Source: Bacteroidaceae bacterium (GTDB lineage: Bacteria; Bacteroidota; Bacteroidia; Bacteroidales; Bacteroidaceae). From it: a DNA stretch of 64,000 nt. Of the stretch, positions 48,148-63,433 are shown piece by piece; the stretch's first letter is position 1; each line of letters opens with the position of its first letter. The position numbers were made by a program, and so were the translations under genes. Where the stretch lies: positions 1 through 64,000 of the forward strand of contig JAKSLJ010000002.1 of the NCBI GenBank assembly GCA_024401275.1, read 5' to 3'. The notes beneath the pieces were generated by a model, which saw nothing but the letters and a program-made list of their open reading frames with translations, had not been told where the DNA came from and made no database searches.

Positions 48148-49317
48148 CTAGTATTCAAAAACTCCGTTCTCGGAAGTGATAGTGAGGTGCTTGTGATCAC
48201 TTTCCTCTATGCGACCGATGATCTGAGCGTCGATGTTGAAAGACTTGCTGATCTCGATAACCTGCTCAGCCTTTTCTGCAGGAAGATAAACCTCAAGACG
48301 ATGGCCCATGTTGAACACCTTGTACATTTCCTTCCAGTCAGTCTTGCTCTGCTCCTGAATAGTGCGGAAGAGTGGTGGGATAGGGAAGAGGTTGTCCTTG
48401 ATGACGTGGCAGTTGTCGCCAACGAAATGGAGAACCTTTGTCTGTGCACCGCCAGAGCAATGTACCATACCGTGGATGTCAGAACGCATAGCGTCAAGAA
48501 GCTTCTTCACTACAGGAGCGTAAGTACGAGTAGCAGAAAGCACGAGCTTGCCAGCGTCGAGTGGTGAACCTTCAACAGCGTCAGTAAGCTTCAAACCACC
48601 AGAATAAACGAGATCTTCTGGTACATCGCCGTCGAAACTTTCAGGATATTTCTCTGCAAGATACTTTGAGAATACATCGTGACGAGCAGAAGTAAGACCA
48701 TTGCTGCCCATACCGCCGTTGTATTCCTTCTCGTAAGTAGCCTGACCGTAAGAAGCAAGACCTACGATAACATCGCCCGGCTGGATGTTTGCATTGTCAA
48801 CAACATCGCTGCGCTTCATACGACAAGTGACTGTAGAGTCAACGATGATGGTGCGAACGAGGTCGCCAACATCAGCTGTCTCACCGCCAGTGGCATAAAC
48901 GCCAACGCCCATCTCACGAAGTTCTGCGAGGAGTTCGTCGGTACCGTTGATGATGGCAGAGATAACTTCTCCTGGCACCTTGAGCTTGTTGCGTCCGATA
49001 GTGCTTGACACGAGGATATTGTCGGTAGCACCAACGCAGAGGAGGTCATCAATGTTCATGATGAGAGCATCCTGTGCGATGCCTTTCCAAACGGAAAGAT
49101 CGCCAGTCTCTTTCCAGTAAAGGTAAGCGAGTGACGACTTAGTGCCTGCACCGTCAGCGTGCATGATGTTGCAATACTCAGGATCTCCGCCAAGAATATC
49201 AGGGATAATCTTGCAGAAAGCCTTTGGATAAAGACCTTTGTCGATGTTCTTGATAGCGTTGTGAACATCTTCTTTCGCAGCCGATACGCCGCGAAGCATG
49301 TATCTATTTGTACTCAT
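48148..49317 (-). CDS. purM: Phosphoribosylformylglycinamidine cyclo-ligase (AIR synthase)
   Basis: PurM closes the imidazole ring of AIR in purine synthesis. The 389-residue protein has HADGAGTKSSLAYLYW, MNIDDLLCVGA, YATGGETADVGDLVRT and NMGHRLEVYLPAEKAE, the standard PurM blocks. It is longer than the E. coli enzyme (about 345), as in other Bacteroidetes. It lies downstream of aroE on the same strand, separated by a family B hairpin. Confidence 0.94.
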   Translation of the reverse strand: MSTNRYMLRGVSAAKEDVHNAIKNIDKGLYPKAFCKIIPDILGGDPEYCNIMHADGAGTKSSLAYLYWKETGDLSVWKGIAQDALIMNIDDLLCVGATDNILVSSTIGRNKLKVPGEVISAIINGTDELLAELREMGVGVYATGGETADVGDLVRTIIVDSTVTCRMKRSDVVDNANIQPGDVIVGLASYGQATYEKEYNGGMGSNGLTSARHDVFSKYLAEKYPESFDGDVPEDLVYSGGLKLTDAVEGSPLDAGKLVLSATRTYAPVVKKLLDAMRSDIHGMVHCSGGAQTKVLHFVGDNCHVIKDNLFPIPPLFRTIQEQSKTDWKEMYKVFNMGHRLEVYLPAEKAEQVIEISKSFNIDAQIIGRIEESDHKHLTITSENGVFEY

Positions 49318-49332
49318 TTTCGATATTTTGGA

Positions 49333-49362
49333 CCGAAGCGGACGCTTCGGGAACTGTGGCTA
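49333..49362. repeat. Family B hairpin between aroE and purM
   Basis: CCGAAGCGGACGCTTCGG (8-bp stem, GA centre) is followed by GAACTGTGGCTA. The final CTA is the complement of the aroE stop codon, so the element overlaps the end of aroE. Confidence 0.9.
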
Positions 49363-50109
49363 TTTGCGGATGCCGTTCCAGAACTCCCAGCTTGCGAAGG
49401 CTTGGAGAAGAAGCATTTCGAGACCGTTCTTTGTCTTTGCACCATACTTTGCTCCGTTCTTCATGAAGAGTGTCTGGTCTGGATTGTAGATGAGATCGTA
49501 GAGAATGTTGTGGTTGTCCATAGCCTCGTAAGGAAGGTTTGGACATTCGTCAATGTGAGGATACATACCGCAAGGTGTGCAATTTACGATGACATTGTAT
49601 TCCTTGATGACCTCGGGAGTTATTGATTCGTATTGGATTGTGCCTGGACGCTGATAGCGGCTAACATAGACAGGTTCGATGCCTAGCTGTTGCAATCCGT
49701 AGAAGATAGCCTTTGAAGCACCGCCTGTACCAAGTACGAGAGCCTTTTTGTGATATGGCATGAGCATTGGTTTGATGCTCTCTGTGAAGCCGATGACATC
49801 ACTATTGTAGCCTGTTAAGACGGTTTTGTTTCCCGTGCTTTCAACCTTGATGACGTTTACGGCGCCGATAGCACGAGCTTCAGGGCTAATGTGGTCAAGA
49901 AATTGCATGACCTTCTCCTTGTATGGAATTGTTACATTGAGTCCTTTCAGTTCTGGATTCATGGCGAGGATTTCAAGAAAATTGTCGATTGACGAAATCT
50001 CGAAATTGATGTACTCAGCATCAATGTTCTCATTCTCAAACTTTTCGTTGAAGTAACCTATCGAGAATGAATGTCCTAAAGGATAACCGATTAGTCCGTA
50101 TTTGTCCAT
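49360..50109 (-). CDS. aroE: Shikimate dehydrogenase
   Basis: The 249-residue protein starts MDKYGLIGYPLGHSFS, the substrate-binding N-terminus, has GLNVTIPYKEKV with the catalytic Lys, the NADP loop ALVLGTGGASKAIFYGL, and IVNCTPCGMYP. It reduces dehydroshikimate in aromatic amino acid synthesis. It lies between ubiE and purM on the same strand. Confidence 0.94.
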   Translation of the reverse strand: MDKYGLIGYPLGHSFSIGYFNEKFENENIDAEYINFEISSIDNFLEILAMNPELKGLNVTIPYKEKVMQFLDHISPEARAIGAVNVIKVESTGNKTVLTGYNSDVIGFTESIKPMLMPYHKKALVLGTGGASKAIFYGLQQLGIEPVYVSRYQRPGTIQYESITPEVIKEYNVIVNCTPCGMYPHIDECPNLPYEAMDNHNILYDLIYNPDQTLFMKNGAKYGAKTKNGLEMLLLQAFASWEFWNGIRK

Positions 50110-50122
50110 AATGTTTATTTTT

Positions 50123-50227
50123 AGGCCGGCGTTAAGCCGGGAGGGGGGGCTCTATTTGAGACCGGCGGGAAAGTGCCGGGAACTGTGGCTATGAAACCGA
50201 AAGCGAAACTTTCGGGAACGTTGGCGG
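50123..50227. repeat. Three family B hairpins between ubiE and aroE
   Basis: CCGGC..GCCGG (50126-50140), CCGGC..GCCGG followed by GAACTGTGGCTAT (50162-50192), and CCGAAAG..CTTTCGG followed by GAACGTTGGCG (50197-50226). Stems differ but the tail after the second and third is the same as elsewhere. Confidence 0.85.
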
Positions 50228-50230
50228 GCT

Positions 50231-51004
50231 TTATTTCTCTATGAGGTAAAGCGTGCAGATGCCGAATGTCAGACGTTTGAAAGAGACTTTTGAAAAGCCT
50301 GCTTTCTTGACAATCTCAGTCATCATTTCACCTTGTGGGAATGCCTCTATTGAATGAACGAGATAGTCGTAGGAATTTTTGTCATTGGCAATCATTCGTC
50401 CTATCAGAGGAAGAAACGTGTGCGAATAGATTCTGAAGAGTTGCTTCATTGGAAATACTATTGGTTCGGATAGTTCCAATATGGCAAACACTCCGTTTGG
50501 CCTCAATACGCGACGAATCTCCAAAAGGGCAGCATCCAGGTTCTCAAAATTTCTTATGCCGAATGACGTTGTGATGATGTCGAAACTTTCATCTGCAAAA
50601 GTCATCTTTGTGGCATCTTCCTTACTGAAAGAGATAACCTTGTCCAGCTTTTCTTTCGCAACCTTTTCCCTTCCAACAGCCATCATTCCTTCCGAAATAT
50701 CAACGCCAATGACCGACTTTGGATTCAGTCTCTTTGCTTCAAGAATTGCAAGATCGCCTGTGCCGGTTGCGATGTCAAGAATATCTGCGCCTTTTTGCTG
50801 TCTGTTAATAGGAATTTCTGTAAGCTTTTGCGCAAAAGGATGGATGCTTCTTATCAGTTTATTTCGCCAATATCGGTCAATGCCTAACGACATGAAATGG
50901 TTAATCTTATCGTATGTTTTGGCTATACTGTCAAACATACGTGATACTTGTTTACCCTTATTTTCGTTGCCTCCGAATGGCAGAACCTTTTCTTGCTGAT
51001 ACAT
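50231..51004 (-). CDS. ubiE: Demethylmenaquinone methyltransferase (UbiE/MenG)
   Basis: The enzyme carries out the final C-methylation of menaquinone. The 257-residue protein has VSRMFDSIAKTYDKINHFMSLGIDRYWR, the family signature at the N-terminus, the AdoMet loop DILDIATGTGDLAI, and LRPNGVFAILELSEP. Only the menaquinone substrate is expected in Bacteroidales. The start is ATG at 51004, with MYQQEKVLPF as N-terminus. The coding stop abuts the family B repeat. Confidence 0.94.
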   Translation of the reverse strand: MYQQEKVLPFGGNENKGKQVSRMFDSIAKTYDKINHFMSLGIDRYWRNKLIRSIHPFAQKLTEIPINRQQKGADILDIATGTGDLAILEAKRLNPKSVIGVDISEGMMAVGREKVAKEKLDKVISFSKEDATKMTFADESFDIITTSFGIRNFENLDAALLEIRRVLRPNGVFAILELSEPIVFPMKQLFRIYSHTFLPLIGRMIANDKNSYDYLVHSIEAFPQGEMMTEIVKKAGFSKVSFKRLTFGICTLYLIEK

Positions 51005-51174
51005 TATCCTTCTTTTATGTCACGAAAATTTGGTTGCAAATTTACAAAAGTTTTTCTTTTTTTTGTACAAATGAGGCTTTTTTTTGCGTTTTGCTCCTTA
51101 ATGATATGCTTTATGATAATGAGCAGACGCTGTGGCAAGTATAAAAAGCTGGGATTTATGTCTTATTTAGCCTA

Positions 51175-52449
51175 TCAGACATTATAGAACTCCGTAAAAG
51201 CCTTTATGCAATAGAGATGATCCTGCACGCTTCCAGTTTCACGAACAGAGTGCATAGACCAGATTGGATTGCCCATATCTACGCCACGAAGAGGAATCTG
51301 AGATGTGAGAATATTGCCAAGAGTGCTGCCACCAGCAACGTCGCTGTGGTTTACGAAGGTCTGACAAGGAACGCCCGCCTTTTCGCAGATAGAGCGGAAA
51401 ACAGCAGCAGAATCGGCGTCGGAAGCATACTTTTGCGATGCATTGAACTTGATGACTGGACCTCCGTGCATGACAGGATGGTTTGTCGGGTCATATTTCT
51501 CTGCGTAGTTAGGATGAAGGGCGTGAGCGTTGTCTGCCGAAATCATGAATGAATGTTCTATGGCACGATAGAAATTTTCGCCGCTGCCTGCTATGCGTTT
51601 CAGCATATTGCGAAGAACGGGCGAATGAGCACCTTGCTTTGTGCCGCTGCCGGTTTCCTCGTTGTCGAAGATTGCCATTACCTGCGTTTCGTCTGAAATC
51701 TCTGATGCAAGAAGGGCTGAGAGGGCGGCATGAACCATTGAGAGATCGTCAAGACGACCAGAAGAAATTAAATCCTGATGATAGCCGACAAGGCAAGCAG
51801 GAGTGGTGTCGTAGAGATAGAGATCGAAGTCGAGAATGTCTTTCTGCTCGACGCTTAGCTCTTCGCAGATAATGTTTATGAGAAGATTCTCGCCTTCAAG
51901 ACGATTGTTTACAGCGCCTATGATTGGCAGCATGTCTTTCTGCTTGCTGAGCTTCACGCCATCGTTCACTTGGCGATTAAAGTGAATGGCGAGGTTTGGG
52001 ATTGTCAGCAATGGAGTTTTTATGTGAAGAAGCTTTGTCTCTGGTTTCAGGATGTTTTCGCTGCGAAGAATGACACGACCTGCGATTGAGAGAGGACGGT
52101 CGAACCAAGTAGAGAGAATTGGTCCGCCATAGACTTCGGTATTGAGCTTTACCATTCCTCCCTCGCATAGCATTTCGCTATTAGGTTTTATGCGAAAAGT
52201 TGGTGAGTCGCAATGGGCGCAGATAAGTTTGAAACCAGCTTCTTCCACTGGCTTTTTTCCAACGCGAAAAGCATAGACAGAGGAGTCGTTCTTGGTGATG
52301 AAAAAACAGTCGCCTGCTTTCATCTTTGGCCATTTCTCACCGGCATCAAGAGTCTTGAAACCAGCGGATTCAAGGATTTTTACTATTGTTTTTGCGGCCA
52401 GGAAGTTAACTGGCGAAGCGTCAAGGAAGTTCAGAAGATTCTGTATCAT
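51175..52449 (-). CDS. M18 family aminopeptidase
   Basis: The 424-residue protein shows the aspartyl-aminopeptidase pattern: FKLICAHCDSPTFRIKPN (zinc His and Asp), SSGRLDDLSMVHAALSAL (bridging Asp), MAIFDNEETGSGTKQGAHSP (Glu pair), and the C-terminal NPIWSMHSVRETGSVQDH. It is a cytoplasmic dizinc peptidase that removes N-terminal acidic residues from peptides. It stands alone, and the gap after its start holds CGCCGAAATCGGCG repeats. Confidence 0.93.
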   Translation of the reverse strand: MIQNLLNFLDASPVNFLAAKTIVKILESAGFKTLDAGEKWPKMKAGDCFFITKNDSSVYAFRVGKKPVEEAGFKLICAHCDSPTFRIKPNSEMLCEGGMVKLNTEVYGGPILSTWFDRPLSIAGRVILRSENILKPETKLLHIKTPLLTIPNLAIHFNRQVNDGVKLSKQKDMLPIIGAVNNRLEGENLLINIICEELSVEQKDILDFDLYLYDTTPACLVGYHQDLISSGRLDDLSMVHAALSALLASEISDETQVMAIFDNEETGSGTKQGAHSPVLRNMLKRIAGSGENFYRAIEHSFMISADNAHALHPNYAEKYDPTNHPVMHGGPVIKFNASQKYASDADSAAVFRSICEKAGVPCQTFVNHSDVAGGSTLGNILTSQIPLRGVDMGNPIWSMHSVRETGSVQDHLYCIKAFTEFYNV

Positions 52450-52467
52450 GATGGTTTTGGTTATGAT

Positions 52468-52579
52468 CGCCGAACTCGGCGGTTGATTTTGAAGGAATTG
52501 ATTGCCGAAATCGGCTTTTTTTGCGGAGGAACGCCGAAATCGGCGGTGAGTTTGGAGAGGTGGTACGCCGAAATCGGCG
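52468..52579. repeat. Four CGCCGAAATCGGCG palindromes
   Basis: Copies lie at 52468-52482, 52504-52515, 52532-52545 and 52566-52579, with a fifth at 53452-53463 on the other side of the K+ channel gene. They fill the gap between the M18 start and the channel stop. Confidence 0.88.
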
Positions 52580-52589
52580 TTTTTAATAT

Positions 52590-53429
52590 TTAGCTATTTT
52601 CTTTTGGGAGGAGTTTGGAACCGCAAGCGTCGCAGAATTTTGCGTGTTCCAAGTGCTTTGTCTTGCCGCATGAAGGGCAGACGTATTTTTTACGCTTAGC
52701 ACGTTCCTTAACCATTTCTGCACTTACGATACCTGTTGGGATGGCAACAATAGTGTAACCTATGAGCATCATCATGGAAAGCAGGGTTTTTCCAAGACCA
52801 GTTGTCGGAGTCGTGTCGCCATAACCAACGGTTGTCATGGTTACGATGCTACAGTAGATTCCGTCAAGTGCTGTGTTTATCGTAGAATCGCTACCGCTTT
52901 CCACAACCCAAAGAATACATCCCATGCAGATGTTCAGTATGAAGACAAAGAAGAAAAACACGAGGATTTTGTTCATACTTTTCTGCAAAGAGATAAGCAA
53001 TTCGTGACCTTCTTCCAGGAAGTTAAGCATGCGGAAAACGCGGAAGACGCGGATGATGCGAAGCGTTCTCAAGCCAACATTGTAGCCGAACGGGATGATA
53101 CTGAGAAGGTCGATTATTCCGAAGAAGCTAAGTGCGTATTCCTTTGGGTTAGGATGGCTATAGATTCGCAGAATGTATTCGCAGATGAAGAACACTTGCA
53201 GAAGCATTTCCAAACCGATGAAACCATAGTGGATCCAATCGTGACCGTTGACGTAATTCTGTACAATGCTGTCAAAGACAATAAGGAGAACGCTTACAGA
53301 GATGAGTACAAGCAGAATGACGTCAAAGCGTTTGCCAGCAGGAGTGTCCGTTCCGAAGATTATCTGATAGATTTTGTCCTTCAGTTGTTGGTTGCCTTTT
53401 AGTTCTTGAATTTTGCTTTTTATAGACAT
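52590..53429 (-). CDS. Voltage-gated-type potassium channel
   Basis: Six hydrophobic segments are visible. S4 has the spaced arginines VGLRTLRIIRVFRVFRML, and the pore has SIVTMTTVGYGDTTP, the K+ selectivity filter. The C-terminus adds a small zinc ribbon (YVCPSCGKTKHLEHAKFCDACGSKLL), an uncommon extra that may sense or fix the tetramer. The protein conducts K+ across the inner membrane. Confidence 0.92.
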   Translation of the reverse strand: MSIKSKIQELKGNQQLKDKIYQIIFGTDTPAGKRFDVILLVLISVSVLLIVFDSIVQNYVNGHDWIHYGFIGLEMLLQVFFICEYILRIYSHPNPKEYALSFFGIIDLLSIIPFGYNVGLRTLRIIRVFRVFRMLNFLEEGHELLISLQKSMNKILVFFFFVFILNICMGCILWVVESGSDSTINTALDGIYCSIVTMTTVGYGDTTPTTGLGKTLLSMMMLIGYTIVAIPTGIVSAEMVKERAKRKKYVCPSCGKTKHLEHAKFCDACGSKLLPKENS

Positions 53430-53480
53430 GATAGGGGGTATTCATTTTTATGCCGAAATCGGCGGTTGTGTTTTTGTTTC

Positions 53481-56198
53481 TTATTCCTGACAAAGTTCCA
53501 CAAATGGACAGTATTGGCAAGTTTTTAGGTCGGAGGCTATACTGAATGTTCGCTTGTTAAGCATGTTGTGAAGCACATTATGAAGTTGCTCTTCGTAATC
53601 TTGCTTTACAGAACTTATGTCTTGGAGAGGTTCTTTGTTGAGAGTGATGATCGGGTTATACTCAGCGTCCTTGCTGCCTACATCCTTGTTTCTGATATAG
53701 TATAGAGCAGGAGCAACAGGCAGATGTTCTGGATTATAATTAGAATTGTCAGATATAGCTATTGAGTAAAGAGACGTCTGACGGTAGTAGCCAGCACCCT
53801 CTTTACTATTGTCGAACATGTCTTCTACTTCAAGAAATTTCGGTTCGTCCTTAGTATGATCAGTTCCTGTCTTGTAGTCAACGACGCGGAGAATCTGTTT
53901 GCCTTGTCCGTCAGTTACCTTGTCAAGACGGTCAACGGCACCTCCGATACGAATGTTTACATCGCCTTCTGGAGTTTCGACTGTGTAGTTCTTATAGTAT
54001 CTGTTTTCAAGGGAGACGATAGAGAACGGAGTGCTTTTAATGTCGTTCTTCAACATTCGTTTCATGTACTCCTTGACAATACTTTTCAAAAGTTCTTCCA
54101 TGCCGTTGCTCTCCATGCTGACATTTTCGCCATAAAGTTCTTTCTTCGTCTTTTCGAGAGCTGCGTTGATGTGCGGAACGAGCAGAGCGTCTTTCTTGAC
54201 ATACTCCTCGAGCATGGAAGATGTTATGGTGTTTGTGCCAAACTTACGGTACAAATCTTCTGCTGCATTATGGAAGAATGTTCCGAAAGCAGCTGCGTCC
54301 ATTGTCTCTTCTTCGTCTTTTTCTTCACGAAGTTTGCGGTAATACTGGTAGTAGAACTTCTTTTCGCAACTCATATAGACATTTATTGCAGAAGGCGAGA
54401 TGCCGCCTTTCTTGCGTTCTTCTATGTATTGGAGAAGTTCTTCTTCCGTAGATTCACACGGCTGCGGACGCTTTGTGTGAGTTACGAAATCCGTTTGCAG
54501 AGAGATTTGCTTTATCTGTTTTGGATTGTTTACAATCAGATTAAGCAAGAAGCGACTCATTTCTCCTGGAGAAGTGTCGCTGCCACTTGCGTTATATACG
54601 AGCGTAACATCCTTACAACGCTTCAACAAACGATAGAAATAATATGCAAAGATATTTGTTCTGTCGTCGGATGTGCTGAGCTCAAAGGCGCGCTTGATAG
54701 AGTAGGGGATGACGGAGTTTTCGCTTCCTCCCTTTGGAAGAACGCCTTCGTTGCAAGAGAGCATTATGATGTGGTCGAAGTCGAGATTTCGCGTCTCAAG
54801 CATGCCCATTATCTGAATGCCTTTTGCTGGTTCGCCATGGAACGGAATGGTGGCAGTAAGTATGATTTCCTTGTAGAGACGAACAAGGGTGAGAGCGTCA
54901 ATGTCAAGATAGTTCTGCTCGTGAAGTGTCTTCAGGCGAGTGATAATGTTATAGGTGCGGAAAGTTGCTTCCTGAAGGAGCTGAGAATTGTGGCTTTCAG
55001 GAAGTTTCTTTATAGAAGAAGCGATAGCGGAAATTGCGCTTTCCAAAGCGGAAAGGATGGCGGAAACGGAGCGGGGGATAGCTGCCGAAGCGGACGCTTC
55101 GGGAACAATGGCAGCTTTTGGGGGGACGGCGGCATGCTTGTGAAGCGGATGACCTTCAAGGTTTCTGAGGTAAGAAAGTCGGTAGCGTTGTCCGTCTTTT
55201 GTCAAGCCTTCGGTGTAGAGCTCAAGGAGAGTAGCGATGTAAGATGCGGGCTGTGTTTCTGCAAGTGGAAAACCAGCTGTAATATTCACTGGGCCAACAC
55301 CTTCTGGAAGGCTATAAGTGGCAGAAGGAAGCATGTGCTCGTCGCAAAGAACGATAGCTGTTCTGCGACCGCCGTCTATGCGCTTGTTTTCCTGAAGCCA
55401 TTTCTCTATGAAGCGAGTTTGAAGATTGTCGGTAAGAGCTTGAGCAATAGTTATTTGCGCCTCTTTGTTTACTGTGAGGATGCTTGCTTCATCGTCTTTT
55501 ATTGAGAGCTTATCAGCAAGAGTAAGGAAGAGTTTCTCTTCGCAGCGAAGGCGTTTGTTGAAACCAATTGCGTAGTACTTTTCAAACTTGAAATCTTCGT
55601 ATTTTACCTTCTCTACAACATCGCGATAGAGCATTCCTTCGTAAGCAATTCCGAGAGAATACAGTTTCTCCTTGAAGTCGCTGTAGATGTCGTAGAGATT
55701 ATTCCAAAGAGAAACGAATTTCTGCTTCAATTTCGACTCCTTATCTTTCGTAAAAGAGTTGAAGTAATGCATCAGAAGCTTCTGCTGTTCCTCTGTGAGA
55801 TGAGCTATTGAATCCATCTCATGGAGGTTGCTTATGTTTGTAAAGAGCTGCTTGGCGTCTGCGAGAGATTTGTCTGCATTATCAAAGTCGGCAAGGAGGA
55901 TCTCGCCCCAAGCATAGAACTTGTCAAGCGATTGGTTCTCGTGAGTTATCTTGCAGTAGCTTTTATGCAGAAGGCTTACCAATTGAATGTGGTCGGCAAG
56001 CAGAAGCTTTGACTGCTGCTGGAAGAATTCCGAGATGGAGTAATACTTCGGAGCGAAGACAGCTTCTCCACCGGCTGCCTCAAGAAGGTAGTCGTTCATC
56101 CAAAGCGAAGCACGCTTGTTTGGAAAAACCATAGCAATCTTGGCAAGGTTCTTGCCGTGAGAGCTTATGAGGTTATATGCTATTTCTTTTAGGAACAT
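53481..56198 (-). CDS. addB: AddB-like helicase/nuclease subunit of a recombination-repair complex
   Basis: The 905-residue protein begins FLKEIAYNLISSHGKNLAKIAMVFPNKRASLWM, the inactivated-helicase start of AddB-like proteins. It ends with a RecB-type nuclease: PSAINVYMSCEKKFYYQYYRKLRE, GGAVDRLDK, LRVVDYKTG, and the iron-sulphur Cys cluster CQYCPFVELC. With the AddA-like protein encoded 11 bp upstream it should process double-strand ends for RecA loading. Residues of about 366-375 (IVPEASASA) are a translated family B hairpin within a low-complexity, Ala/Ser-rich stretch of about 40 residues not expected in the family. Confidence 0.88.
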   Translation of the reverse strand: MFLKEIAYNLISSHGKNLAKIAMVFPNKRASLWMNDYLLEAAGGEAVFAPKYYSISEFFQQQSKLLLADHIQLVSLLHKSYCKITHENQSLDKFYAWGEILLADFDNADKSLADAKQLFTNISNLHEMDSIAHLTEEQQKLLMHYFNSFTKDKESKLKQKFVSLWNNLYDIYSDFKEKLYSLGIAYEGMLYRDVVEKVKYEDFKFEKYYAIGFNKRLRCEEKLFLTLADKLSIKDDEASILTVNKEAQITIAQALTDNLQTRFIEKWLQENKRIDGGRRTAIVLCDEHMLPSATYSLPEGVGPVNITAGFPLAETQPASYIATLLELYTEGLTKDGQRYRLSYLRNLEGHPLHKHAAVPPKAAIVPEASASAAIPRSVSAILSALESAISAIASSIKKLPESHNSQLLQEATFRTYNIITRLKTLHEQNYLDIDALTLVRLYKEIILTATIPFHGEPAKGIQIMGMLETRNLDFDHIIMLSCNEGVLPKGGSENSVIPYSIKRAFELSTSDDRTNIFAYYFYRLLKRCKDVTLVYNASGSDTSPGEMSRFLLNLIVNNPKQIKQISLQTDFVTHTKRPQPCESTEEELLQYIEERKKGGISPSAINVYMSCEKKFYYQYYRKLREEKDEEETMDAAAFGTFFHNAAEDLYRKFGTNTITSSMLEEYVKKDALLVPHINAALEKTKKELYGENVSMESNGMEELLKSIVKEYMKRMLKNDIKSTPFSIVSLENRYYKNYTVETPEGDVNIRIGGAVDRLDKVTDGQGKQILRVVDYKTGTDHTKDEPKFLEVEDMFDNSKEGAGYYRQTSLYSIAISDNSNYNPEHLPVAPALYYIRNKDVGSKDAEYNPIITLNKEPLQDISSVKQDYEEQLHNVLHNMLNKRTFSIASDLKTCQYCPFVELCQE
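55085..55112. repeat. Family B hairpin inserted in frame in addB
   Basis: CCGAAGCGGACGCTTCGG followed by GAACAATGGC is the same core as at 49333. On the coding strand it reads as part of AAIVPEASASAAIPR. Confidence 0.92.
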
Positions 56199-56209
56199 TT
56201 TTCTTCTTC

Positions 56210-59200
56210 TTAGATTTCTTCTATCTTGTCTGTATAAACATACCAGAGGAAGGCTTTAACATTTGGCATACCTATCTGCTGGAGAAGCTCTTTGTATTCG
56301 GTAATCTGCTTTTCGTAACTTTCGTGCGGCTTTCCGAACTTGTAGTCAATAACGATTGTTTCCTTACCGTTGGTAATCACTCTGTCAGGTCTTTTTGGAC
56401 CTTCGTTTGTCAGTATGGAACATTCGTTGAAGACCTGCCACTCTTTAGAGAACCAATGCTTGGCTTGTTCGTTACCTTCTATTCTCTTGCGAATGAGCGC
56501 AGATTGTTTGCTGTTTTCTATAACGCCTTCAAATTCAAGTTTCTGCAATACGCCGTCAACATCGTCAACCGTATTTATTTGCGAAAGAACATTATGAAGC
56601 AGCAAACCTGTAGAAATGAAGCTGTTATCGTCTTCGTCTTCTTCTTCGCTGGTAGAAAAGATGAAGTCCTTGCTTCGGTTACTTTGCACAAATTCAACTG
56701 CTAATTGACTGTTGTGCAAACTTAGGCTGACAGGCTCAACAGGCATCTCAAAGACGTTTTCTGGAGTATCTTCGTTAGACTCTTTTGGGGCATTTTTCTT
56801 TTCTTTTATTGCAAACGAACCGAAGTGCTTGGTATAGCCGAAGAAATCTTTTTCGTCTTCTGTCTCAAACTCAATTGTCTGATAAGAGAATGCGTCTTTG
56901 TCAAAGTTGTCAAGGCATTCTTCTACGAGTACTGAAATATGACCTGTACCATATTTATCGGCTGGAGTATTGGAAATTGCTTCGTCCAGCTTTCGGCTTG
57001 TCTGACCATAGAAATAAAGATTCTTTCCAGCACGCGTGAAGGCTACATAGATTAGATTTAGATTATCTATTGTGTTATTGATTATCTCTTGTTCATAATC
57101 TTCTGCGAAAATCGTGTTAGCAAGTTCCTTGTTAGTATGGATAAGAGTAAACGGCAGCTGGTTGAAAGGCGGAGTATTTAGTTCAACCCAGATTTTGTTC
57201 TTCTTTGTGTTAGACGGCCATCCGCCGTCAGCTACGATGACATTGTCAAACTCAAGACCTTTACTTTTGTGGATAGTCATCATCTGAATGCCGTCGGTTG
57301 ACTCTGTTTCGATAGCTTTCTCAGAGATTGTTTCGTCCCAATACCTTAGGAAATTTCGAATGGTAGAAGTATTCTTGCTTGCAAAGTCCTTGAGATAGTC
57401 GAAGAAGGCGGAAATAAATGCGCTGTCGCCCTTGAATGAAATGATATTGAAGGCGCGGAAAATATCTTCAACAACGTCGAGCAAAGGCTTCTTTGCGTCT
57501 ATCTTTTCAATGAGAATCTTGCATTCTTCAGCCGACTTCCCAGAGTACTTTTCAATTGTGGCAAGAAGAATCTTGTCTTCCGGATTAAGTAGAAGTCTAA
57601 GCGCACATATTATGGCGCAAACAGCTGTAGAAGAGCCAAGTATGAAACTCTCCATGCTGACAACTTTTATCTCAGGATAGTTGTCCATAAACTCCTTTGC
57701 CAATTCAGTTAGAATCATATTCCCTCTGCCGAGAATGGCAATATCCTTGGCTTCAACTCCGCGAGAGATAAGCTCTTCAACTTTCTGACAGATCATGCTG
57801 TGGCGTTGCTTATAAGCCTTCTCCGAAAGCATGTGAAATTCCACTTCGCCCTTTTCTTCTGTTATGCCTGGCTTAACATTCTGATGAACGTCGCTATAAG
57901 CTTTCTGCACATTGCAGATGTTCATAGCCTGGTCGAAGAAAGCGTTGTTGAAGTTTATGATGTTCGCTTCCGAGCGGAAGTTTGTGTCAAGGTTTTCTAT
58001 CTTCGTGTCAGATTCATTATTGAATTCCTGCTTGATATTGTCAAGAAGTTTCCAGTCGCCATCTCTCCAACGGTAAATGCTCTGCTTGACATCGCCGACA
58101 ATCATGGAGCCGACTGTTCCGCGAGCTTCCTCTGAGTTATAGTGGCTCATGGTTTCTTGAAGCAGATTCTTGAAGTTATGCCATTGGAGAGTGCTTGTGT
58201 CCTGGAATTCATCTATCATAAGATGGCGCACCTGAGTACCGATTTTCTCAAAGATAAACGGCGAATCGCTCGTGCCAATCATGTCGGCAAGGAGCTGGTT
58301 TGTGCTTGAGAGAAGGAAGCGGTTTGCCTTTTTGTTGCTTGCGTCAACAACTTCCTCAATAGTTCCGAGAAGTTCCAGGTTGTTAAGGTTTATGCGAATC
58401 GCTTTGCTTGAATTAATTATTAATGCAAGTTTGTCGTGGAGGGCCAAATAATCGCGAAGAGCAGGAAGAAGAACTTCCGCAATCTTCTGCGTTCCATATT
58501 TTTTATTATCGGCTGCTTTCTGCCAATTGTTCTCGTCTTCAGCATATTTTCTTACCTTGGAAGGAATGGAAACAACATCGCCGTTTTCTATGTATTGATA
58601 CATTTTCCCCAAACCACTTCTGTTGCTGTCTGAGAACTTGCTGATGTCAAAACCTTGCGCTTCAATAACGTTTTTCAGTTTTTGTGCAGCAGAAACTATG
58701 TTTTCTGTTGATGTCTTGACAAGATTGTCAAGCATCAGCTTATATTCCTTGAAGACGTTATTGCTCTGCGATTCTTCAAAAAGTGCTTTGTATTCCTTGG
58801 AATGGCTCTGGTAGAAATCTGAGAAAATGTTCCTTCCGAAATCCTTAAGTCCGTTGATGACGTTCCAAGTCTTTCCCTCCCTCATGTTCTCCTCGGCAAA
58901 ATCCTTGATGCGTTTGAAGATGTAGTCAGTTGGTTCAAGGTTGTCGATCAGTTCGTCCACAGCCTTGTTCTTCACTTGCTCACCGTTAAGTTCAACGTGC
59001 ATATTTGATACGATGTCGAGCTCTCGCGTCATGTTTCGTAGCACGCGCTGGAAGAATGAATCTATGGTTTCTATACGGAAATGGCCGTAGTCGTTGAGTA
59101 TCAATCCCAAGGCTACAGCAGCATTCTTTCGCACATCACATTCCTTCATGCCCATCTCTTTCGTGATGCGTTCCATATATCCTTTAGAAGACGCCAAACC

Positions 59201-59392
59201 CTCTCGCAACCCATAAAGTTGCGAAAGGATTCTTATTTTCATTTCCTGTGTAGCTTTCTTGGTGAAAGTTACGGCAAGTATGCTTTTGTATTCATCGGGC
59301 CTTAGCATTAGCAGTTTGATGTACTCAACCACCAGTCGGAAGGTTTTTCCTGCTCCTGCTGAAGCACGATAGACAGTTAATGGTGCGGGCAT
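56210..59392 (-). CDS. addA: AddA-like UvrD-family helicase/nuclease
   Basis: The 1060-residue protein starts with Walker A TVYRASAGAGKTFRLVVEYI and AVTFTKKATQEMKIRIL. It has the UvrD motif II region (MIDEFQDTSTLQW), GDVKQSIYRWRDGD, MTIHKSKGLEFDNVIVAD and LIYVAFTRA, and ends with a RecB nuclease core, RPDRVITNGKETIVIDYKFG and QITEYKELL. It is the motor of the AddAB (RecBCD-like) complex. Its stop lies 11 bp before the addB start, so the two are cotranscribed. Confidence 0.93.
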   Translation of the reverse strand: MPAPLTVYRASAGAGKTFRLVVEYIKLLMLRPDEYKSILAVTFTKKATQEMKIRILSQLYGLREGLASSKGYMERITKEMGMKECDVRKNAAVALGLILNDYGHFRIETIDSFFQRVLRNMTRELDIVSNMHVELNGEQVKNKAVDELIDNLEPTDYIFKRIKDFAEENMREGKTWNVINGLKDFGRNIFSDFYQSHSKEYKALFEESQSNNVFKEYKLMLDNLVKTSTENIVSAAQKLKNVIEAQGFDISKFSDSNRSGLGKMYQYIENGDVVSIPSKVRKYAEDENNWQKAADNKKYGTQKIAEVLLPALRDYLALHDKLALIINSSKAIRINLNNLELLGTIEEVVDASNKKANRFLLSSTNQLLADMIGTSDSPFIFEKIGTQVRHLMIDEFQDTSTLQWHNFKNLLQETMSHYNSEEARGTVGSMIVGDVKQSIYRWRDGDWKLLDNIKQEFNNESDTKIENLDTNFRSEANIINFNNAFFDQAMNICNVQKAYSDVHQNVKPGITEEKGEVEFHMLSEKAYKQRHSMICQKVEELISRGVEAKDIAILGRGNMILTELAKEFMDNYPEIKVVSMESFILGSSTAVCAIICALRLLLNPEDKILLATIEKYSGKSAEECKILIEKIDAKKPLLDVVEDIFRAFNIISFKGDSAFISAFFDYLKDFASKNTSTIRNFLRYWDETISEKAIETESTDGIQMMTIHKSKGLEFDNVIVADGGWPSNTKKNKIWVELNTPPFNQLPFTLIHTNKELANTIFAEDYEQEIINNTIDNLNLIYVAFTRAGKNLYFYGQTSRKLDEAISNTPADKYGTGHISVLVEECLDNFDKDAFSYQTIEFETEDEKDFFGYTKHFGSFAIKEKKNAPKESNEDTPENVFEMPVEPVSLSLHNSQLAVEFVQSNRSKDFIFSTSEEEDEDDNSFISTGLLLHNVLSQINTVDDVDGVLQKLEFEGVIENSKQSALIRKRIEGNEQAKHWFSKEWQVFNECSILTNEGPKRPDRVITNGKETIVIDYKFGKPHESYEKQITEYKELLQQIGMPNVKAFLWYVYTDKIEEI

Positions 59393-59394
59393 TA

Positions 59395-59480
59395 GATTGA
59401 TTTACTAATTTACTGATTTTTAATTTACAATTTGCACAAATTTGCACAAAAGGGTCAGACCCCTTTGTGCAATTTTGCGA
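59395..59480. repeat. Family C palindrome copy 4 with ATTTAC repeats
   Basis: Short TTTACTAATTTACTG units lead into TTTGCACAAATTTGCACAAA and a family C palindrome (59439-59476). The element lies directly after the stop of the FadL-like gene (minus strand) and before addA, and may terminate the former. Confidence 0.85.
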
Positions 59481-59481
59481 G

Positions 59482-61020
59482 TTAGAATCTGTACGTAAGT
59501 GTACAGAGTGCCTGGTGGCGCTTGTTGTTTACATCAACGCTACATGCAGGTGTGTTGCCGTTGATGTTGCAGTAAGGAGCAAACTCACCCTTCTTGTCAG
59601 AATACTGATAAGCGAGATCGAGCGAGAATTCTGGGCTAATGTTGAAGCCAAGACCTGCTGTGAAGCGGTTTGTAGCCTTCCAATTTGTGTAGTCAGTTGT
59701 TGAAGAGTAGTATGTTCCAGGGCTGTCGAGAGTGATGTCCTTGTATGCATCTTCCTTGTACATCGGAGAAACATAGTTGTAACCCAAACGAACTGCCACT
59801 TCAGGAACTACGCGCACTTCTGCACCAACCTTGAATGTAGAAACACCCTTGAGCGAACGTTCTGTATGGTCGCACATGTTGCGGTCGTTATAAGCGCTTT
59901 CATAGTAGTTGTAACGTCCTCCTTCAGCTTCCTTAATTTCGCTTTTGAGAGAAGAGTAGTCAACATAGTTGAACGAAGCTCCAATGGCAAGGAATCTACC
60001 AAAGGTAGTACCTGCGCTTAAGCCGAACTTCCAAGGTGTGCTGATTTCGTATTCATAAACCTCTCCGGTACTTAGAACTTTCTTGTTTGAACCGTAATCT
60101 GTATTGTTGTAGATAGCGGTATTGTTCCTTGTGCGAAGATCGTACCATGTAGGAGTTTCAACAGAGAGACCGATACGGAATGGGCTTGCTTCGATAGGAC
60201 GGAAGATGATACCACCCTTTAGACTTGCTCCAACACCACTAATATGGCGGCTATCTTCAAGTTCTACATTTCCGATAGTTTCACCTCCGTTGAGGAGATT
60301 CTCCCTAAAAAGAGAATTGTTCTGGTAGTGAACGTCAGAGATTGTTATACCGAAACCATAGTAAATGCGATCATGAGAATTGCATGAAAGGATAATGTCG
60401 TAGTTGCCAATATAGCCCTTGCGTTCTCTGCCGAGATAATAGCCGCTTGCACTATAGCATCCGAGATCACCACTATTGTCGTTTGTATGCATGAGAGTGT
60501 TCTCGTAGAGATAGTCCACCTGAGTGTAAGCATCATCACCTAAGTAGCTATGATACTTCTCGTATGTAGTTGTGTTCTGTGAGCCGTAGTAGGTCTTTCC
60601 GTCGTACTGGTAAGGAAGAGTAGCGCCTGTAAGATTGAGAATTTGGTTGAAGTTGGTCGACTTGCGGTAGCCGAAGCCGAGGTTAAGTTGAGAATCATAA
60701 TCTCTGATCATAGGCAGAACAACACCTATCTGGTCGAAGTTTACGTTACCCTTGGAGTCGCCAGAAATGTTTCCGCCGTTTGGCTGCTGAGAATAGCCGA
60801 ATGTGGCTGATACGCTTCCGCTACGGCTAAGTCCGAGAGCTGCAGGGTTTTCGCCTGCTGCAGAGATGTCAGCTCCGAGAGCTTCCATTGCTCCACCCAT
60901 GCCCACGTACTTTGCTGTACCGTTAAGGTCTTGAGTAGCGATTTCTGCGTCCTGGTATGTTTCCTGTGCCATTGCTCCCATGGAAGAGAGCAGAAGGGCT
61001 GCTGTCATTATCTTTTTCAT
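59482..61020 (-). CDS. FadL/OMPP1-family outer membrane protein
   Basis: A signal peptide (MKKIMTAALLLSSMGAMAQ) is followed by GTAKYVGMGGAMEALGADISAAGENPAALG, the hatch-like N-terminal segment of FadL-type porins, then about 14 amphipathic strands with aromatic girdles (NWKATNRFTAGLGFNISPEFSLDLAYQYSD) and a terminal Phe (LTYRF), the outer-membrane assembly signal. It probably allows entry of a hydrophobic compound. The substrate is unknown. Confidence 0.9.
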   Translation of the reverse strand: MKKIMTAALLLSSMGAMAQETYQDAEIATQDLNGTAKYVGMGGAMEALGADISAAGENPAALGLSRSGSVSATFGYSQQPNGGNISGDSKGNVNFDQIGVVLPMIRDYDSQLNLGFGYRKSTNFNQILNLTGATLPYQYDGKTYYGSQNTTTYEKYHSYLGDDAYTQVDYLYENTLMHTNDNSGDLGCYSASGYYLGRERKGYIGNYDIILSCNSHDRIYYGFGITISDVHYQNNSLFRENLLNGGETIGNVELEDSRHISGVGASLKGGIIFRPIEASPFRIGLSVETPTWYDLRTRNNTAIYNNTDYGSNKKVLSTGEVYEYEISTPWKFGLSAGTTFGRFLAIGASFNYVDYSSLKSEIKEAEGGRYNYYESAYNDRNMCDHTERSLKGVSTFKVGAEVRVVPEVAVRLGYNYVSPMYKEDAYKDITLDSPGTYYSSTTDYTNWKATNRFTAGLGFNISPEFSLDLAYQYSDKKGEFAPYCNINGNTPACSVDVNNKRHQALCTLTYRF

Positions 61021-61106
61021 AGTTGTATATTTGTTGTGAGTTTTCGTATTATTGCATTAATCCATCCCTTACAAGGGAGAACTGTATGACATTCAAACAG
61101 AGGAAT

Positions 61107-62078
61107 TTAGTGTCTTCCGCCTGTACTTCTTACGGAGCCGCCTGAATGACCACCACCTCCGCCAGAGAAGCCGCCGCCTCCGCCGCCAGAGAAGCTGCCA
61201 GAACTTCTGCTAGGTGTGTATGAAGGGGTGTTGTTTACTTGTGGGCTTGTTGACACTCTTGGCACGTTGTAGTTGCTGTTAGAGCGAGAGCCGTTGTTCC
61301 AGCCGCGGGTGTTGCCTGATGTGCGGATGCCGCTTGAAGTTCCGGTTGGTCTGTTGTTCCAAGAGCCGTGGTTTCTTGAGCCTGTACGACTGATGTACGT
61401 AATGCCTCCATGATGGGCGCCTCCGCCGTGTGGGTAGTAGCCTCCAGGATAGAATGTGTCGTAATACCAAGGCCTGTAGCTGCCGTACCATCCTGTGTAG
61501 CCGTAGAACCAAGGGTCGTAATATCCGTAGTTCCAAATGTAGTGTGAAGAGTATGGATAGAAGCCGTGGTGGAAGCCGTAGCGATAGCCGTAACCGTAGT
61601 ACCAAGGATCATACCAATAATCGTACCAAGGGTCGAACCAAGTGTTGTAATACCAAGGACGATAGATGCCGAATGTGAGCGCGTCGTCAAGTTCCTTGAA
61701 GCGTTCCATCATGCGAGTGAACTTGTAGTTTTCCTTTACATTATAAAGACTGTCGCCATTCTCTTCCCATACGAAGCGGTCGTCGCTTGTGTTAAGAGAA
61801 TCAAACACGAGTGAGTCGCCTGGCTGGTAACCGTAGTGGCGGTTGTAGAGGTCAACATCATCGTGGTAGATCATTCTGTAAACGCGAGCCATAGCTTCCT
61901 CGTAAGCACGCTGTTCAGCTAAAGCTTCTGCCTGCTTTCGTGCTTCCTTCTCCGCCTTCTTCTGAGCCTTTTCTTCAGCAGAAAGTTTCTTTGGAGTGAA
62001 GTACATATCGTCCTGTGCCATCATGTTTGTGATGTTGGTTGTAAGGATGACGAGCAATGAAAGGATCAGTTTTTTCAT
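61107..62078 (-). CDS. Exported Tyr/Trp/Gly-rich low-complexity protein
   Basis: After a signal peptide (to MMAQ), a charged coiled-coil segment (EEKAQKKAEKEARKQAEALAEQ) leads to a part of about 75 residues extraordinarily rich in Tyr, Trp and Pro (WYYNTWFDPWYDYWYDPWYY), then Ser/Asn/Gly-rich sequence and a tail GGGGGGFSGGGGGHSGG. I recognise no catalytic domain. Related Tyr-rich exported proteins occur in Prevotella and Bacteroides. The composition suggests an adhesive or phase-separating surface protein, but this is inference. Confidence 0.8.
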   Translation of the reverse strand: MKKLILSLLVILTTNITNMMAQDDMYFTPKKLSAEEKAQKKAEKEARKQAEALAEQRAYEEAMARVYRMIYHDDVDLYNRHYGYQPGDSLVFDSLNTSDDRFVWEENGDSLYNVKENYKFTRMMERFKELDDALTFGIYRPWYYNTWFDPWYDYWYDPWYYGYGYRYGFHHGFYPYSSHYIWNYGYYDPWFYGYTGWYGSYRPWYYDTFYPGGYYPHGGGAHHGGITYISRTGSRNHGSWNNRPTGTSSGIRTSGNTRGWNNGSRSNSNYNVPRVSTSPQVNNTPSYTPSRSSGSFSGGGGGGFSGGGGGHSGGSVRSTGGRH

Positions 62079-62227
62079 AATGATATGCTATTTGGTGTTT
62101 TCTTATTTTAAGTTGCTGGTAGTAAAAGCGTGTATAAAGTAGCTTTTTCTGCTGCAAAGTTAAAAGTTCTGTTTTTGTTTATGTGAGGAAAATCCCCACT
62201 TTTGCAAAGGAAAAACCCTATTTATGC

Positions 62228-63433
62228 TTAATCCATACGATTTTTGTAGTCTTCATAGTCGAATTCCCGCAATATTTCCAGGCTTCCGTCTCTATGTTTC
62301 ATCGCTATTGCTGGGTGAGAAATGCCGTTGAACATGTGGGTCTTCACAGTTGTGTAGTGAATCATGTCCTCGAAGATTATATCTTCGCCTATCTGGAGAT
62401 CGTGGTCAAACAGCCATGAGCCGATAAAGTCACCGGAGAGGCAACTGTTGCCGCCTAGGCGGTAGCGGAAGGATTGGACGCCCGACGATGAATCGTCGGG
62501 AACGGTGGTTGCTTTTTCTGCGACAGGAGCTTCTTCTTCTTCTTTGTTTATCGCTTTTGCGCCACGGACAGCCGGTTGGTATGGCATTTCTAGGCAGTCG
62601 GGCATGTGGCAGGCGAAGCTTACGTTCAGTATGGCTGTTCGGATGCCGTGGTTCTCCACGATGTCTATGACCTTTGAAACTAACGGACCTGTCTGCCATG
62701 CGAAGGCGGAGCCTGGTTCAAGGATTATATGAAGGTTAGGATAACGCTCATGAAGTCCGTTGAGAACGCGAATAAGATGCTCTGTGTCGTAGTCCTTTCT
62801 AGTCATTAGATGACCGCCGCCGAGATTTAGCCATTCGAGCTGTGGCAGCCATTTGCCGAACTTCTCTTCAAGATGGGCAAGGGTGCGCTCAAGTGTATAG
62901 GAGTCGTCCTCGCAATGGCAATGGCAATGGAAGCCACGTAAGTTAATTGATAATGGAGAATTGATAATTGATAATTCCAATTGATCTGCCGTCACGCCGA
63001 AGCGCGAACCTGGTGCGCAAGGGTTGTAGAGGGCTGTCTCTATCTCCGAATATTCGGGATTTACTCGTATGCCGCAGCTTATCTCGTGATCCGCTTTCAA
63101 GGTTTCAGGACAGAAACGCTCAAACTGCGAGAAAGAGTTGAATGTGATGTGGCTTGAGCAGCGCATGAATTCCGGGAAGTTTTCCTCTGTATAAGCCGGT
63201 GAATAGCTGTGTGCATAGCTGCCGAACTCCTCGTAGGCAAGGCGTGCCTCGTTTGGCGAGCTTGCCGTAGTATGGCTGATGTACTCGCGGAAGATTGGGA
63301 ATGTCTTCCAGAGCGCAAAGGCTTTGAAGGCAAGGATTATCTCAACGTTGGCGCGAGTGGCAACATCTTTTATCAAGGTGAGGTTCTTGCGTAGAAGGTC
63401 TTCCTCGATTATGTAGCAAGGATTAGGAGACAT
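62228..63433 (-). CDS. nspC: Carboxynorspermidine/carboxyspermidine decarboxylase
   Basis: The enzyme performs the last step of the alternative spermidine pathway (carboxyspermidine to spermidine). The 401-residue PLP enzyme (alanine-racemase fold) has the PLP lysine in ILAFKAFALW, GFHCHCHCEDD, WLNLGGGHLMTRKDYD and YRLGGNSCLSGDFIGSW. Two stretches are foreign: LSIINSPLSI (about residues 152-162) is a translated AATTGATAATT repeat, and TTVPDDSSSGVQS (about 310-322) is a translated family B hairpin. The protein is about 20-30 residues longer than usual for that reason. The amidase of the same pathway lies upstream. Confidence 0.93.
   Translation of the reverse strand: MSPNPCYIIEEDLLRKNLTLIKDVATRANVEIILAFKAFALWKTFPIFREYISHTTASSPNEARLAYEEFGSYAHSYSPAYTEENFPEFMRCSSHITFNSFSQFERFCPETLKADHEISCGIRVNPEYSEIETALYNPCAPGSRFGVTADQLELSIINSPLSINLRGFHCHCHCEDDSYTLERTLAHLEEKFGKWLPQLEWLNLGGGHLMTRKDYDTEHLIRVLNGLHERYPNLHIILEPGSAFAWQTGPLVSKVIDIVENHGIRTAILNVSFACHMPDCLEMPYQPAVRGAKAINKEEEEAPVAEKATTVPDDSSSGVQSFRYRLGGNSCLSGDFIGSWLFDHDLQIGEDIIFEDMIHYTTVKTHMFNGISHPAIAMKHRDGSLEILREFDYEDYKNRMD
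62481..62510. repeat. Family B hairpin inserted in frame in nspC
   Basis: CCCGACGATGAATCGTCGGG (9-bp stem, GA centre) is followed by AACGGTGGTT. The stem sequence is quite different from the copies in addB and before purM, yet fully complementary, and the tail is conserved. Confidence 0.9.
62943..62985. repeat. AATTGATAATT repeat inside nspC
   Basis: TTAATTGATAATGGAGAATTGATAATTGATAATTCCAATTGAT runs in frame through nspC just before the conserved GFHCHCHCEDD. Such AATTGATAATT arrays are frequent between genes in Bacteroidetes but unusual inside an enzyme. Confidence 0.85.

Follow-up and report, generated by a model that had tools for sequence, protein, structure and literature searches.

The 64,000-nt window analysed here is the start of contig C12 of a draft Bacteroidaceae genome (G000; 3.2 Mb, 71 contigs) and carries five copies of a short hairpin with a constant flank on one side. 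We regard these units as members of a family of lineage-specific, non-autonomous, proliferating palindromic inserts of certain Bacteroidales, often gut inhabitants of animals, whose stems are kept partly by template switching, a reading to which we attach a probability of about 0.6. Copies would spread as DNA by means of an enzyme requiring the constant flank together with a hairpin of any sequence, and insertions in genes that fall in the wrong frame or the wrong orientation would be removed by selection on the protein. The gain of units beside existing ones, together with the flexibility of the stem, suggests recognition of the constant flank plus the fold. The stems would drift yet tend to stay palindromic, as template switching during replication would copy one arm onto the other and occasionally invert the loop.

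On the mRNA strand, the unit consists of AGCCACnGTTCCC, an 18- or 19-nt hairpin beginning at its last two Cs, and then GC or TC. The fuller core reads (A)GCCACnGTTCCC followed by the hairpin, the outer C-C/G-G pairs using the last two Cs of GTTCCC; with an 18-nt hairpin this core measures 30 nt, or 10 codons inside a gene, and information drops on both sides of it. The constant flank, GGGAACnGTGGC(T), has a length of 12 nt, and a variant flank, GCCCCnGTGCCC, is also present. Neighbouring units are arranged head to tail, mostly every 33–39 nt, and their stems often differ, the 5′ arm being common to neighbouring tandem units in only 5 of 42 pairs from two genomes. Two divergent forms were also encountered. 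In a red-deer Prevotella metagenome-assembled genome (MAG), G547, the flank GGGCACnGTGGC occurs in 16 of 35 matches, seven of which have the same stem, GAAGCTGACGCTTC, and constitutes a separate subfamily (L257–L276). The element of a phage-like contig from a Paludibacteraceae MAG (G538:C71; L172–L174) is richer, comprising tandem AGCCACCGTTCCC 13-mers and the hairpin of the family, to which is often added a second one that has a GGCTCAGCC core and a changing outer stem; a TnpB-like transposase gene is also found on this contig.

The family was described from the window alone in an earlier note, and its description of the five copies holds: all lie on the + strand at the positions it gives, with no match of the tail pattern on the − strand of the window, their stems, of four different types, are fully paired, a GA centre is present in three and GGGAACnnTGG in all five. 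The note had proposed a genome-wide pattern search with a test of covariation, and both bear it out. The tail CGGGAACNNTGGC has 36 matches in the whole source genome against 6 for a reversed control, and these sites, examined without structural selection, provide an independent check on model-based counts. At least 6 of 7 pairs are Watson–Crick at 33 of the 36 sites (best of four registers), and 15 different 7-nt 5′ arms are used in those 33, where the note had named a single stem throughout the genome, with the differences in the window due to a chance likeness, as the outcome that would speak against it. In a fixed register, 120 of 180 cells are Watson–Crick, compared with a mean of 91.5 (sd 5.1, maximum 109) in 2000 shuffles dealing the 3′ arms among copies, and 26 cells are changed on both sides, compared with a shuffle mean of 11.3 (maximum 20). 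Among controls, again in the best of four registers, 6 of 6 positions are paired at 0.2% of random positions and at 3.7% of GGG sites lacking the following AAC. A covariance model yielded at least 95 matches at E<0.01 in G000, at least 96 in its relative G546 and at least 91 in G547; these are lower bounds, as 150 candidates were scored per genome (of 933 in G000), and they favour hairpins, the training copies of the model (R1) having been chosen for stems of 5 bp or more. On the window, the same model recovers the five copies at E values of 1e-11 to 3e-5, three of them (49332, 50161 and 55084) having belonged to the training set, and the next match has an E of 0.17. All five copies cluster in the last 15 kb of the window, and positions 1–49331 contain no significant model match.

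In G000 and G546, copies between co-directional genes follow transcription almost without exception. Genes were called by codon score with the codon statistics of G000, which makes the calls less sure in other genomes; 97 copies were placed in G000, 12 of its 109 matches at E≤1 being omitted from the context counts, and 95 in G546, where 1 of 96 matches (C25:6852) had no DNA coverage. In G000, 63 of the 97 copies lie between genes, and 59 of the 60 located between co-directional genes are in the mRNA sense, with three more at other junctions; the 34 copies inside called genes comprise 31 in the mRNA sense and 3 inverse ones. In G546, all 36 copies between co-directional genes are in the mRNA sense, 7 lie at other or unclear junctions, and 52 are inside called genes (49 in the mRNA sense, 3 inverse). 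Away from called starts, a single reading frame (Ala-Thr-Val-Pro...) is used by every scored mRNA-sense copy, 23 of 23 in G000 and 42 of 42 in G546, leaving aside the 3 of 26 and 4 of 46 copies, respectively, in which no GTTCCC-like motif could be read. Counted apart, copies within 30 codons of a called start are in this frame in 1 of 3 scored cases in G000, where 2 more were unscored, and in 2 of 3 in G546. The encoded peptides are of the types ATVPEASASG, ATVPDGFPSG and ATTVPDDSSSG, and inverse copies encode another, EADASGTVA-like peptide. Carrier genes in G000 include those for PriA, an M16 peptidase, an alpha-2-macroglobulin and an outer-membrane protein, and in G546 one for a tetrapyrrole methylase/CbiC fusion. 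The 23.7 kb contig G546:C62 (L175, L277), which has the look of a cobalamin gene cluster (two proteins tested by Pfam), carries about 10 units, some of them inverse. Orientation by replication strand was considered and rejected: intergenic copies on C11, C16 and C20 of G000 lie on both strands, each opposite to the neighbouring genes with the exception of C20:33612, which stands between genes of differing direction, so that transcription is the better fit in this genome. The alignment with transcription could reflect selection against the other direction or the manner of insertion.

The distribution of the family is patchy. Exact matches number 34 in G000 and 0 or 1 in each of nine genus relatives. 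Among 393 genomes sampled across the order, 29 have a match and only G000 has more than two, in a survey that scored 18 candidates per genome and found 25 matches in G000; it rules out further dense genomes in the sample but not isolated copies. When named genomes were scanned with the pattern, 18 stretches were returned, 17 of which are in Bacteroidales MAGs with titles referring in part to horse faeces, red deer and goat abomasum; the remaining one, from Streptomyces, was taken as chance. Of two pattern scans of IMG/VR, one hit a single contig and the other nothing, and a 31-nt query had no plasmid match and three weak phage ones, the hosts being unrelated. The phage-like contig G538:C71 holds many copies, but phages seem not to be the general carrier.

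Individual units are present in one genome and missing from another at the same place. The insert is absent from all seven homologues of the window decarboxylase gene (carrier of unit 5) found and aligned among the nine other genus genomes, and from all seven aligned homologues of PriA, two of the nine PriA homologues, which match in pieces, having been left out; in both proteins the alignment places the element as an extra piece in a variable loop. Closer comparison is afforded by G546, a close relative as judged only by the 68–99% identity of shared pieces. At three junctions a pair of units in G000 has no counterpart in G546, an in-frame unit lengthens one gene by 27 nt in G546, and single extra units of 35 and 37 nt, flanked by repeated AGCCACnGTTCCC, are present in one relative only, either of which may have it. 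Orthologues too divergent to judge (L209/L332, L224:3765) were left unscored.

How the stems stay paired can be followed at orthologous hairpins of the same two genomes. On one contig, two hairpins separated by 390 nt are the same in both species apart from the two central bases, GA versus TC in one and AA versus TT in the other, each difference being an exact inversion of the 2-nt loop. The 3,616 aligned sites there contain 100 mismatches and only five adjacent pairs of mismatches, two of which are the loop inversions, in two of the three units there; around one of the flips, 321 nt are identical on one side and 116 of 116 compared nucleotides on the other. At another locus, a compensated change was found, a G-C pair of one species answering to A-T in its relative. 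Both kinds of event carry the signature of template switching between inverted repeats, which the cited portions of two reports describe as homogenizing arms and inverting spacers (PMC8604942, PMC8794818). Template switching appears the likeliest source of the compensated changes, as judged from the sequences of three events, a small number that stands beside one-sided changes elsewhere. The option, raised in the earlier note, that the second arm is written from the first thereby gains some direct support from the two loop inversions and the compensated pair, to be set against several orthologous stems with one-sided, unrepaired changes. The note's companion statement, that ordinary copying does not yield compensated stem changes, was too strong. 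Among the 36 tail sites several stem types are found more than once without any change, so some of the variety comes from copying already divergent sources.

Several points weigh against proliferating inserts with stems renewed by template switching. No mobilizing enzyme was found, Y1 transposases being the one family tested; the transposase or reverse transcriptase matching the tail that the earlier note had suggested looking for was likewise not identified in this search, which did not extend to reverse transcriptases. No parent transposon was seen, and filled and empty sites compared between G000 and G546 show no clean target-site duplication. Gain and loss at these sites are not polarized by an outgroup, and the genomes are draft MAGs. 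The orientation rule weakens elsewhere: 5 of 6 copies at co-directional junctions are in the mRNA sense in G547, where 22 of 26 mRNA-sense copies in genes share the common frame; none of four copies is in the mRNA sense in G129, with its less sure gene calls; and the figure is 4 of 9 at the co-directional junctions of G538:C71, where all 14 matches are on one strand even where called genes run oppositely, which speaks against a simple transcription rule on that contig. Even in G000 and G546, the strict intergenic orientation requires a further assumption beyond the proposed mechanism. As to the stems, eight orthologous hairpins are identical and a ninth differs at its outermost base, which weighs against fast repair; several others have one-sided or loop changes, the one-sided ones (L191/L240, L224/L256, L219/L249) likewise indicating that homogenization is not fast, and compensated pairs between different insertion sites could derive from a few old, diverged sources.

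Among the alternatives, a true family of repetitive extragenic palindromic (REP) sequences mobilized by a REP-associated tyrosine transposase (RAYT) of the Y1 type survives best, while remaining rather unlikely. Tagged REPs (GTAG and CGTC; Di Nocera et al. 2013) are, in the cited portion of that work, hairpins of 20–40 bp with a constant unpaired motif at one end (PMC3733652), and the present units resemble them in the one-sided flank, size, high copy number and subfamilies with complementary stem changes; their flank contains GTGG, which that study lists, for one species, as a variant form of the GTAG tag (PMC3733652). A search for Y1_Tnp in G000 and 16 other genomes gave matches in G000 and 8 of 10 other carrier genomes, compared with 1 of the 6 genomes of the genus that have almost no units. 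Because of this association, the probability of the proliferating inserts was lowered from 0.62 to 0.60 and that of the RAYT alternative was raised slightly. At locus L079 the Y1 gene has a decayed copy of the unit about 500 nt away, at about 2429–2454, inside an open reading frame of 315 aa and reading VPVPEASASG. Against mobilization by a RAYT stand the lack of an exact GTAG or CGTC tag and the results of scanning 28 Y1 loci with the covariance model, 27 of which have no match, the exception (L318) having a Y1 match below the family cut-off. The palindrome flanking a RAYT-like gene in L080 is a different one; G541 and G143, with 19 and 15 model matches of the unit, gave no Y1 match, though a draft can lack genes; and the association is confounded with kinship. 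The RAYT-like gene and its palindrome (TGTAGGGCGAGGATTTCCGAGCCG...; L080, 1340–2060) are apparently a separate REP system of G000.

A second and likewise unlikely alternative is a sequence-flexible mobile hairpin, in which the enzyme would read the constant 12-nt flank and the fold instead of the stem sequence, add units head to tail and insert them in the sense of transcription, perhaps through RNA or a single strand exposed by transcription, while processing of the hairpin would rewrite an arm, so that the stem could evolve while the unit stays mobile.

That the units are cis-acting RNA elements, mRNA hairpins selected for processing, stability or the coupling of genes in operons, appears distinctly unlikely, in spite of the strong covariation and the sense orientation of intergenic copies between co-directional genes (59/60 and 36/36). 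Of 176 tail sites, 160 have hairpins with 4 or more of 6 pairs, and in these 914 of 960 cells are Watson–Crick, 16 are G-T, 13 A-C and 17 other; rare and symmetric mismatches of this kind point to intermediates without an RNA-strand bias, no excess of G-U over A-C being seen. This tally is a partial check, as its loci (L061–L078, L141–L170 and L172–L296, with L031–L060 and several others left out) were mostly fetched by the model. Units found in one relative are absent from the same junction of the other, called genes contain 34 of 97 and 52 of 95 copies, mostly in one frame, and an Rfam search of the window at gathering scores returned only a tRNA. Selection for the RNA hairpin, the other option of the earlier note, is not supported, given the absence of a G-U excess and the gain or loss of units between relatives.

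It is very improbable that the peptide itself is what is selected, as a useful ATVPEASASG-like linker spread for protein function with the palindrome as a by-product: the single reading frame and the loop-like positions in two aligned proteins fit, but 63 of 97 copies in G000 are between genes, inverse copies give the EADASGTVA-like peptide and the loop flips are left unexplained. Chance similarity of unrelated hairpins, for which nothing speaks beyond their short length, is refuted by the 36 tail matches against 6 in the control and the hairpins at 33 of them, and its probability is negligible.

The window copies and the genes around them are listed below, with unit coordinates on the GGGAAC strand (+), the mRNA reading the reverse complement. 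The TAG stop of the aroE-like gene forms the end of unit 1, which is common to G000 and G546, the latter having a second unit just upstream. Units 2 and 3 stand in tandem with different stems, and the end points of the 112-nt stretch that contains them vary with the alignment; the further palindrome of this stretch, CCGGCGTTAAGCCGG at 50126–50140, adjoins them. The in-frame peptides of units 4 and 5 are AAIVPEASASA and ATTVPDDSSSG, respectively.

Units of the hairpin family in the window, and associated features
Feature	Position	Strand	Stem	Context	In G546
Unit 1	49332..49362	+	CCGAAGCG/CGCTTCGG	between aroE-like gene and AIRS-like gene	present
Unit 2	50161..50191	+	CCGGC/GCCGG	ubiE-aroE junction	absent
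Unit 3	50196..50227	+	CCGAAAG/CTTTCGG, 19-nt hairpin		absent
112-nt stretch	50121..50232			units 2 and 3 and a further palindrome	missing from orthologous junction
Unit 4	55084..55114	+	as unit 1, CCGAAGCG/CGCTTCGG	inside PDDEXK nuclease gene 53481-56198 (−)	related unit at same place
Unit 5	62481..62511	+	CCCGACGAT/ATCGTCGGG	inside PLP decarboxylase gene 62228-63433 (−)	
Gene with AIR synthase related domains	48148..49317	−		downstream of unit 1	
Shikimate dehydrogenase-like (aroE-like) gene	49360..50109	−		between unit 1 and units 2/3	
UbiE methyltransferase gene	50231..51004	−		upstream of units 2/3	
PD-(D/E)XK nuclease gene	53481..56198	−		carries unit 4	
Orn/DAP/Arg decarboxylase-like gene	62228..63433	−		carries unit 5	

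Hundreds of dispersed hairpins with constant flanks form a natural collection, and counting their loop flips and compensated stem changes across related species would put a long-standing question to the test, whether paired stems change by selection via intermediates or by one-step template switching. They also caution that covariation alone is no proof of a functional RNA, and with them the Bacteroidales join the bacteria that have in-frame palindromic inserts in housekeeping proteins. A literature search found no title or abstract describing the family, in a coverage that leaves out most subscription journals, so that a prior description is possible.

The ends of IS200/IS605 elements and other miniature inverted-repeat transposable elements are likewise short non-autonomous repeats able to fold, from which the present units differ in having no firm relation to a Y1 gene and no clear target duplication, TnpB genes not having been surveyed. 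The nearest likeness in kind is to tagged REPs and to Rickettsia palindromic elements (RPE). With tagged REPs the units share, as tested here, a short hairpin, a constant one-sided unpaired motif and many copies. The cited portion of the tagged-REP study adds subfamilies with complementary stem changes, heterodimers, a frequent location between co-directional genes and occasional copies inside genes, and reports CGTC REPs also without a dedicated transposase and from Bacteroidetes (PMC3733652). The flank GGGAACnGTGGC, in contrast, fits neither GTAG nor CGTC; the units form head-to-tail arrays, whereas many tagged REPs are described in that text as lying in opposite orientation (PMC3733652); and they show a near-complete alignment with transcription in two genomes, with the large share of copies inside genes mostly in one frame. 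RPE are, in the parts of the sources cited, likewise palindromic inserts in frame inside unrelated genes (PMC10969869, PMC3733652), but measure about 150 bp, whereas the units described here, compared with them by description rather than by sequence, are about 30 nt long, belong to Bacteroidales and form tandem arrays. Template-switch (quasipalindrome) mutation, as presented in the portions cited, also homogenizes arms and inverts spacers at short inverted repeats (PMC8604942, PMC8794818); the cases given there concern unrelated inverted repeats, whereas here its substrate would be a family of dispersed repeats, to whose variety of stems it would contribute, and the arms measure 9 bp, compared with the more than 9 bp given for spacer inversions in yeast. 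The family is set apart from tagged REPs and RPE by its flank, its size, its single frame, its orientation rule and its loop flips.

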